DNA from: a virus
IMG/VR virus record: IMGVR_UViG_3300042184_000003
Location: 1 to 41,591 of that record
Direction: 5' to 3' (one strand)
Length of the DNA: 41,591 nucleotides
This document shows positions 14,122 through 16,366 of this stretch, piece by piece (position 1 is the stretch's first letter; each line of letters starts with the position of its first letter). A program made the position numbers and the translations under genes. The notes beneath the pieces are model-generated. The model had not been told where the DNA came from. It saw only the letters and a program-made list of their open reading frames with translations, and did no database searches.

Positions 14122-15825
14122 TTAAAAGTCAGGTTCTTGCTGATCAGCCCATGCCGCATCAGCTTCGGAAGAGTCATCTGGACGCCAGCCCTCAGGCTTG
14201 GCAACGAGGCGACCCGTTTGCTTGTCGTACTCCATGTAGCCAGCGATACCTGTCTCTCCTGTGAACCGGCACTTGAGGATGCGGAACAGGATCAGGTTAG
14301 GGTTGGCGCCTTGTTGGTTACGCTCTACAGCAATGATGGTGTCACTCAGTTGGCGCAGACCACCGGACCCACGCAGGTCAGTGGCAGAGACAGGGCGACC
14401 CTCTTCGTGAGGCTTGCCTTTGTCAGGGTTCTTCAGGTGGCAGATCACAAACACAGCGACGTTCTTGGTCTTCGCGAAGCTCTTAAGCTTGGTCATCAGA
14501 CGGTCGATCATCTTGCGTTCATCGTTCTCACCATCCATCGCAGAGACCACGATTGAGATGTGATCCAGAACGATCACCTTGCAGCCTTCCACTTGAACCA
14601 TGTAGGCCAGCTTGGCGAGCAAACGATCCTCAGCGGATTCCGCAAAGGCGTCATAGAGGTGCAGCTTGTCGCTCTCAAAGATCTCATCGAAAGCCCGGTC
14701 AAACATCTCTTCGGTGGTCTCATCAGGGTTCTGACGAACTCGACTACCCATGTGAAGCCCAACGATGTCCTGAACGGTTTCCTCAACGGCCTCTTCAAGC
14801 ATCGCCACGCCTACCGGAATGCCATTGTTGTGGAAGAGGTTGTAGGTGTTCTGACGGACGAACGTGGACTTACCTGAGCCGGACCCAGAGGTGACAAGAA
14901 TGACCTCACCCTCTCGGATGTCTTTGGTCATCTTGCGCAGCTCGTGAGGGGCCACCAAAGGGAACGATGGGACCAGCTTCTTCTCCTTGATGCGGGCCTT
15001 TAGGGACTTCGCAGAGACCACGCCATCAGGTACGAACGGCGAGGCATTCCACATGGCATCCATCACAGCTTTACCCTGGCCCTGAGCTACGCACTCGTTA
15101 GGGTCCTTGAAGGGCAGAACGGCGATCTTTACCTTGCCCGGTGGGAGCACCTCAGCGGCCTCCTGAGAGGCAAGCCGACCCGGCTCATCCATGTCAAACA
15201 TGAGGATGATCTCTTCGAACTGGTCGAAGTATTCGTAGTTGGCGGCACAGGTAGCCTTGGCAGCTTTCGAGCCATGCCCAATGGACACGACTGGATATTT
15301 GCCACCTTGCAACTGGGCCACTGTCAGGCAGTCAATCTCACCCTCGGTGACGACGATCTTGCGACCACCATTCCACAGGTGACGACCAAACAAAGCGTCC
15401 TTATTGTGCTTGCCCTTGGTAAAGAACTCCTTGGACGCATCGCGGCACTTCTGAGAAGTCAGGTTGCCTTGAGGGTCGTAGTAGTTCGCCACTTGAACAG
15501 GCACTTCCTTGCCCGCATGGGGCGAGAACGCTTTGCCAATCCAGTAGCCATAGAGGCGACAGATCGGCTCCTGTAAGAACCTCTTAGGCAGAGCAGTAAA
15601 GTAGCCCCCACAGTCCGACATAGAGAGCGTGCCTTCACCTTTGACCTTCGGTGTGTACTCACCACGGTCCTTCCCATCGGGCCTCTTGTAGGCCGTCTCA
15701 GGGGGGCAGGCGAAGCAGTATTGGTGCCCATCGGAGAACAAAGAGTTGGCATCTGATGATCCACACTCATCGCAAGGAATATGTGCGACAAAAACACTCT
15801 CCTCACTCTCATCATGCGACGACAT
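14122..15825 (-). CDS. 4A: Primase-helicase gp4 (with internal start for the short form)
   Basis: A 567-residue protein (T7 gp4A is 566). It has an N-terminal zinc ribbon, CDECG then YCFAC, and a primase TOPRIM-type core with VTEGEID and MFDMDEPG. The helicase Walker A motif is [11 protein letters not shown], with [10 protein letters not shown] as Walker B and [13 protein letters not shown] following. The C-terminus is acidic and ends in F (EPDF), as in T7, where this tail docks polymerase. ATG 15825 gives the T7-like start and overlaps the nucleotidyltransferase end by 14 bp. A second ATG at 15621 behind GGTGAAGG would yield a 499-residue helicase lacking the zinc ribbon, like T7 gp4B (503). 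Confidence 0.97.
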
Positions 15826-16366
15826 CACGCACCTCAACCTCATCCACATAGCGCCCTTGACGCATCGGAGCTTTGTGAATCAGTTCGAGCCACTTGGCTT
15901 CCATCTTTTCCTGACGGGAGCCACGAGCGTCCTCTCGCAGTTGCACTAAGTTGGTCCAGTGCTTGTCACCCATGAAGCGAATGGTCGCCCCTTCGATGCC
16001 ACGCTGGATGCCACTGATGAGGAACTGATTGAGGTTGTAGTCAAACTTCTGGATGGCCTCGGAGACGCACTCTACCTCATAGAGGATCACGTCAATCTCT
16101 GAGCCTTCGATCTTCCAGACCCCTTGAAGGCGGTCGGAGTCGGAGCCAGTGTGATACTTGGGAAACTTGTGGTAGGAAAAGCCACCTTCATCGAGCGCTC
16201 TGGAAACAGTCTCCGGGTCAGTGCCCGCGCAGATGATGTCAATGTCTTTTGGATCGACCCCAAAGAACAAGTCACGAGCACAACCACCAGCGATGATCGC
16301 GCCGATGCCATGGTCAATGAGATGCTCACAAAGATCGAACCCACCTTGTAATAAAGTGCGGTTCAT
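15812..16366 (-). CDS. Nucleotidyltransferase, CCA/poly(A) polymerase head domain
   Basis: A 184-residue protein. [18 protein letters not shown] (residues 27-44) is the class II CCA-adding enzyme signature: G27 G28, R31 D32 and the catalytic pair D41/D43. The third carboxylate is probably D92 in SEIDVILYE, and FDYNLNQFL (about 108-116) recalls the D-x-x-x-N motif that follows in CCA enzymes. The neck, body and tail domains are missing, so it is head-only. T7 has small genes here, not this one. It is the first gene after the promoter at 16418, with an AAAGGAGG site. Substrate is unknown; tRNA 3'-end repair or nucleotide transfer to a protein or RNA are options. Confidence 0.85.

Follow-up and report, generated by a model that had tools for sequence, protein, structure and literature searches.

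The window analysed here is the whole of a 41.6-kb virus record of the gh-1 (Ghunavirus) type, from a T7-like Pseudomonas phage whose genes lie on the minus strand. An open reading frame (ORF) at 15812–16366 (−) encodes a 184-residue nucleotidyltransferase-family protein. It lies between an upstream amidase gene (gp3.5-like lysozyme; 16442–16885, −; Pfam Amidase_2, E = 1.9e-19; phrog_822) and the downstream primase-helicase gene (gp4; 14122–15825, −; phrog_239, E = 6e-217). An exact copy (0 mismatches) of the phage RNA polymerase promoter TTTAAAAACCCTCACTGTGGCT is found at 16420–16441 (−), followed by a ribosome binding site, AAGGAGGT (16371–16378, −), 4 nt 5' of the ATG. Allowing up to three mismatches, the promoter sequence occurs nine times in the window, compared with zero expected by chance, and in gh-1 an annotated phage promoter (phi6) occupies the equivalent position before the nucleotidyltransferase gene. 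The gene overlaps gp4 by 14 nt with the gp4 start at Met 15825, which we take to be the probable start from the resemblance of the following sequence to T7 gp4, or by 38 nt with the longest ORF. The initial annotation had described a 184-residue ORF at exactly this position, without giving the strand, and had placed it behind its own promoter and in overlap with the primase-helicase gene; all three descriptions agree with what we observe. The match to phrog_1614, the relatives found across phages and the low dN/dS (see below) argue against a chance ORF, and the gene is confirmed as real and correctly observed.

The window protein is an ordinary new member of a known, annotated and already published family. 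The phrog_1614 ('nucleotidyltransferase') HMM matches residues 6–178, essentially full-length, with E = 2.1e-55. A tblastn search with the window protein returned 200 phage records at E ≤ 1e-3, rising to 385 when the limit was loosened. Among these relatives is the gh-1 protein (NP_813759), which is 88% identical and encoded at the equivalent genome position. Profile-confirmed members occur in several Autographiviridae subfamilies and genera, in the Straboviridae phage phiP4-3 and in the Zobellviridae phage CW02. An earlier survey, in which it is named CCA-nucleotidyltransferase, reported the gene for 37 of the 46 Pectobacterium Autographiviridae and for 60 of more than 500 others, and saw no homologues in bacteria (PMC7693777). 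Values of dN/dS between the window gene and its relatives are 0.05–0.21, at or below those for primase, endonuclease I and amidase, indicating strong purifying selection on the nucleotidyltransferase gene.

In a scan of 84,980 species genomes the family was found in just four contigs, all from Pseudomonas and two of them short; the scan used short back-translated patterns and could therefore miss distant bacterial relatives. We rejected a bacterial origin of the family, given that only these four contigs were found and that the order of flanking ORFs is T7-like in L114, the single one viewed. The four contigs are probably phage or prophage. L114 and L115 (Pseudomonas fontis and P. rubra, 120–128 kb) carry the nucleotidyltransferase gene inside long bacterial contigs, and in L114 it is followed directly downstream by a 566-aa ORF and then by one of 715 aa, which are T7-like sizes; the arrangement suggests integrated T7-like prophages.

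The active-site residues are the most conserved part of the protein. Motif A (residues 26–45; 16232–16291, −) contains the catalytic D41 and D43, and residues 27–43 conform to the class II pattern GGxxRDxxxGxxxxDxD. The third carboxylate, D92, lies in the strand IDVIL (residues 91–95; 16082–16096, −), and a motif-B-like element, FDYNLNQ (residues 108–114; 16025–16045, −), takes the place of the class II sequence RRDFTIN. Across an alignment of 31 relatives reaching down to 21% identity with the window protein, G27, G28, R31, D32, D41, D43, D92 and D109 are invariant (31/31), F108 and N113 are each kept in 30, R144 is Arg in 30, and position 151 is Arg in 25 and Lys in 6. The core is conserved too in a further-spread set of 16 sequences, with D41 and D43 present in 16/16. 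The motif had thus been correctly located by the initial annotation (residues 27–44, with D41 and D43 as the catalytic pair), and the substitution of these two residues among relatives, which it had named as grounds for abandoning its reading, is not seen in either set. Taken together, sequence and structural model place the motifs of the Pol-beta nucleotidyltransferase superfamily (G27G28, D41xD43 and D92) in a head fold.

An AlphaFold2 model of the window protein, built from the 31-sequence input, has a pLDDT of 92.1 and a pTM of 0.88. Its top structural match is Escherichia coli PAP I (Z = 12.2 over 145 residues, 3.2 Å), with class II CCA enzymes at Z = 9–11.6 and MenT1 at Z = 6.8. CCA enzymes rank first in a Foldseek search with the model (E = 1e-5), and the family profile compared with solved structures likewise matches CCA enzymes (6ibp, E = 5e-8) and E. 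coli poly(A) polymerase (E = 4e-7). A second model, of a Drulisvirus homologue (L104), has a pLDDT of 89.7 and matches the same families at Z = 11–12.6. Pfam PF01743 (poly A polymerase head) scores the window protein at 21.1 bits, below its gathering cut-off of 23, and gives weak matches in 29 of the 31 relatives (best E = 4e-6). These profile and structure-prediction matches bear out a stand-alone head of the class II CCA/poly(A)-polymerase type. As first described, the protein was a head domain alone; the absence of body and tail stands, but in both models the superposition continues past the head to the end of the first neck helix.

This predicted C-terminal helix (residues 150–163; 15878–15919, −) matches the first neck helix on superposition, and both models align to the identical last neck-helix residue in three enzymes: residue 190 of T. 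maritima, 166 of P. halocryophilus and 165 of A. aeolicus. An ungapped count-back from there places R151 on the motif D arginine, R177, of T. maritima CCA, and estimated numbering offsets give the same correspondence in P. halocryophilus CCA and E. coli PAP; in B. stearothermophilus (1miv) it falls one helical turn off. The helix that carries motif D, EDxxR, in class II enzymes is present in the model, the Asp is not at i-3, and the placement of the Arg assumes an ungapped helix. At the level of single residues, then, R151 may be equivalent to the motif D arginine.

Several features set the window protein apart from CCA-adding enzymes. It ends about 20 residues past the first neck-like helix, so that body and tail are absent: 71 residues follow N113, compared with 245–337 in full-length class II enzymes. 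In place of the motif B consensus RRDxTxN the window has KFDYNLN; x[F/H]D is found in 31/31 relatives, and the family form is xFDxNxNQ. The distance from the third carboxylate to the motif B Asn is 21–22 residues in 31/31, compared with 34–37 in class II (four full-length class II sequences, all phage enzymes), and the loop leading up to motif B is 12–16 residues shorter than in full-length class II enzymes. Only residues 4–61 aligned when the family profile was compared with profiles of full-length phage CCA enzymes, so the equivalence of motifs B and D rests on structure and spacing. Judged by the features tested, with RRD, the loop and the neck-body-tail portion missing, the window protein falls outside the CCA-adding enzymes; it is the catalytic part of a class II CCA/poly(A) enzyme and, strictly speaking, no CCA-adding enzyme. 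From the modelled anatomy we describe it as a phage-specific, minimal Pol-beta-superfamily nucleotidyltransferase with an intact active site, predicted to consist of a class II head and the first neck helix.

As a separate observation, a very large viral contig of 478,840 bp (IMGVR_UViG_3300044957_000763; L094:3001-6000) encodes a full-length class II CCA enzyme with an apparent intein inside motif B, the putative junctions being ARRDFTMN-CFSGETKILT...HTFCLDGNLLTSN-CLAYDP.

One member of the family is toxic. The report on Klebsiella phage fHe-Kpn01 describes its gp22 as resembling CCA enzymes by HHpred/Phyre2 prediction, and describes growth inhibition of E. coli DH5alpha on induction of gp22 from pBAD33 (PMC7291057). 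We located the gp22 gene at 12893–13441 of MN380459. Its product belongs to phrog_1614 (E = 1.3e-39), is 99% identical to the Drulisvirus homologue modelled above, which is thus a near-twin of a toxic protein, and shares 28% identity with the window protein across 171 aa (E = 3e-12), the C-terminal helix included. The toxicity is published for this relative only, and a search of the open-access literature found no tested function for family members beyond it. The suggestion in the initial annotation of an effector acting on another target gains support from this toxicity (PMC7291057).

Membership of a toxin–antitoxin system was considered and rejected: a PADLOC scan gave no match for the window protein at E ≤ 1 (AbiEii matches one relative, E = 0.012), and the adjoining genes, amidase and primase-helicase, include no cognate antitoxin.

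We infer the catalytic activity, substrate and purpose of the window protein as follows. The gene is transcribed by the phage polymerase as a middle gene, along with those for replication. In the folded protein, D41, D43 and D92 would hold the metal that activates an NTP, and the nucleotide pocket would be made up of FDxNxNQ and the arginine of the C-terminal helix. One or more nucleotides would then be transferred, without a template, to a host RNA 3' end, probably of tRNA, and the purpose would be host takeover, at the level of translation or RNA metabolism, instead of CCA restoration. We tentatively favour this reading as a whole, an active template-independent transferase that targets host RNA 3' ends, most likely those of tRNA, in the service of host takeover, although we hold it somewhat short of probable. 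Kinship with RNA-tailing enzymes, the invariant catalytic core and the toxic homologue speak for it. Against it, the toxic homologue is only 28% identical, and the toxicity, in the passages of PMC7291057 covered here, is not linked to the active site by a mutant. The family is also acidic (median pI 4.9) and carries no added RNA-binding domain, which counts only weakly. We dropped low pI as an argument against RNA binding, because the ligase, SSB and exonuclease of the window phage are as acidic as the nucleotidyltransferase family. A small-molecule or protein target would suit the anatomy equally.

Transfer of a nucleotide to a protein or small molecule, which would put a host or defence factor out of action in the manner of AMPylating toxins and antitoxins or antibiotic adenylyltransferases, is the alternative that fares best, and we regard it as rather unlikely. 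The acidic character of the protein and its lack of a nucleic-acid-binding domain are consistent with such a target, as is the toxicity of the homologue (PMC7291057). Five members weakly match aminoglycoside adenylyltransferase (best E = 0.0024), and the model weakly matches the lincosamide adenylyltransferase LnuA. These similarities are far exceeded by the clear sequence and fold matches, which are to RNA-tailing class II enzymes and stand well above those to LnuA and MenT1, and the acidity is shared by the DNA enzymes of the same phage.

A role in replication, also raised by the initial annotation from the coupling to gene 4, would have the enzyme alter 3' ends of RNA or DNA that serve the phage replisome, such as tRNA primer ends. 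The coupling is real in the window, where the genes overlap, but is lineage-specific: in gh-1-like phages the gene follows lysozyme and precedes primase, and in most others it lies beside DNA polymerase, or elsewhere adjoins ligase. Of the 16 further annotated phages viewed, 13 have it directly beside, or one or two genes away from, a gene for DNA polymerase, primase/helicase or ligase; MR7, phiP4-3 and CW02 do not. The whole middle region consists of replication genes, however, and in such a single cluster chance adjacency is often to be expected, so adjacency is weak evidence for a replication role; in MR7 and phiP4-3 the gene is found elsewhere. T7 can take host tRNA as a lagging-strand primer, an activity masked by gp5.5 (reviewed in PMC11506809), and the window carries a gp5.5-like gene, both of which fit. 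The gene is nevertheless absent from T7 and many Autographiviridae (PMC7693777) and is therefore not a required part of the replisome. We judge a replication role unlikely.

The gp5.5-like gene itself (10761–11207, −; phrog_1452, Gp5.5-like H-NS inhibitor) encodes about 45 extra residues past the matched domain. Two other genes of the window are of separate interest. A 146-aa ORF at 19643–20083 (−) belongs to a small 'DNA ligase' family (phrog_13790) while the full ligase is encoded separately at 20462–21520, and phiIBB-PF7A likewise has a second small 'DNA ligase' gene. In the early region, 25507–26211 (−) encodes a 234-aa 2OG-Fe(II) oxygenase-like protein (phrog_61, E = 1.6e-50), whose C-terminal part also matches, less strongly, a DNA endonuclease family.

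The first idea put forward in the initial annotation was that the enzyme mends tRNA 3' ends cut by defence nucleases of the host; the analysis weakens it to the point where we consider it quite unlikely. The catalytic head is of the class II CCA type, and larger phages do carry full-length CCA enzymes, for which tRNA repair has been proposed (PMC7824862). The window protein, in contrast, lacks the tRNA-holding body and tail, the RRD of motif B and 12–16 residues of the preceding loop, and its homologue harms the cell instead of helping it (PMC7291057). No tRNA gene was found in the 41.6-kb window, and its scanned non-structural genes include neither an RNA ligase nor an end-healing kinase; a tRNA-repair cassette was rejected on these grounds. 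It is the absent tRNA-holding domains, the absent ligase and kinase, and the harm done by homologue overexpression that disfavour repair.

The favoured transfer to host tRNA and a role in replication could also be joined: the enzyme might edit the 3' ends of host tRNA and in this way govern the DNA synthesis that the phage primase and polymerase start from tRNA primers. If true, such editing for priming would explain why a tRNA-end-type enzyme lies beside primase and DNA polymerase genes across Autographiviridae; we think it very unlikely. Scaffold use of an enzyme fold is common among phage proteins, yet a degenerate remnant without catalysis, or retention of the gene solely for a protein–protein role, is highly improbable here: conservation is strongest at the catalytic residues in 31/31 relatives across several phage families, and dN/dS is as low as for primase.

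The family is present in hundreds of sequenced phages, often labelled tRNA or CCA nucleotidyltransferase, and includes one toxic member. The CCA label goes too far, since the family keeps an invariant catalytic core but lacks parts that make a CCA enzyme. What the present analysis adds is a narrower description (head and first neck helix, with CCA-specific features lost) and a link to the toxic homologue; it also sharpens a widespread annotation into a definite question, namely what this minimal transferase modifies.

Compared with its closest kin, the phrog_1614 members gh-1 NP_813759, LKD16 gp16, LIMEzero ORF22 and fHe-Kpn01 gp22, the window protein has the same motifs, size and middle-gene location. 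In gh-1 an HNH gene separates the nucleotidyltransferase gene from primase, whereas in the window the two overlap directly; otherwise there is no essential difference. With class II CCA/poly(A) enzymes the window protein has in common motif A, the head fold and the first neck helix (E = 5e-8, Z = 11–12); it differs in lacking the remaining neck, body and tail, in the loss of RRD from motif B, in a motif D that is just partly recognisable, and in its third carboxylate, which is D92 in the window family and Glu in the four full-length class II phage sequences. The CCA and RlaP repair enzymes of large phages (PMC7824862) are likewise phage-borne members of the Pol-beta superfamily, but they are full-length or travel with RNA ligases, of which none was found in the window. 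The tRNA-tailing MenT toxins of Mycobacterium (PMC11541572) are also small, stand-alone, Pol-beta-type nucleotidyltransferases, and bacterial toxicity is a common theme; the fold match to them is much weaker (MenT1 Z = 6.8, compared with 12), and the window gene has no antitoxin-like neighbour.
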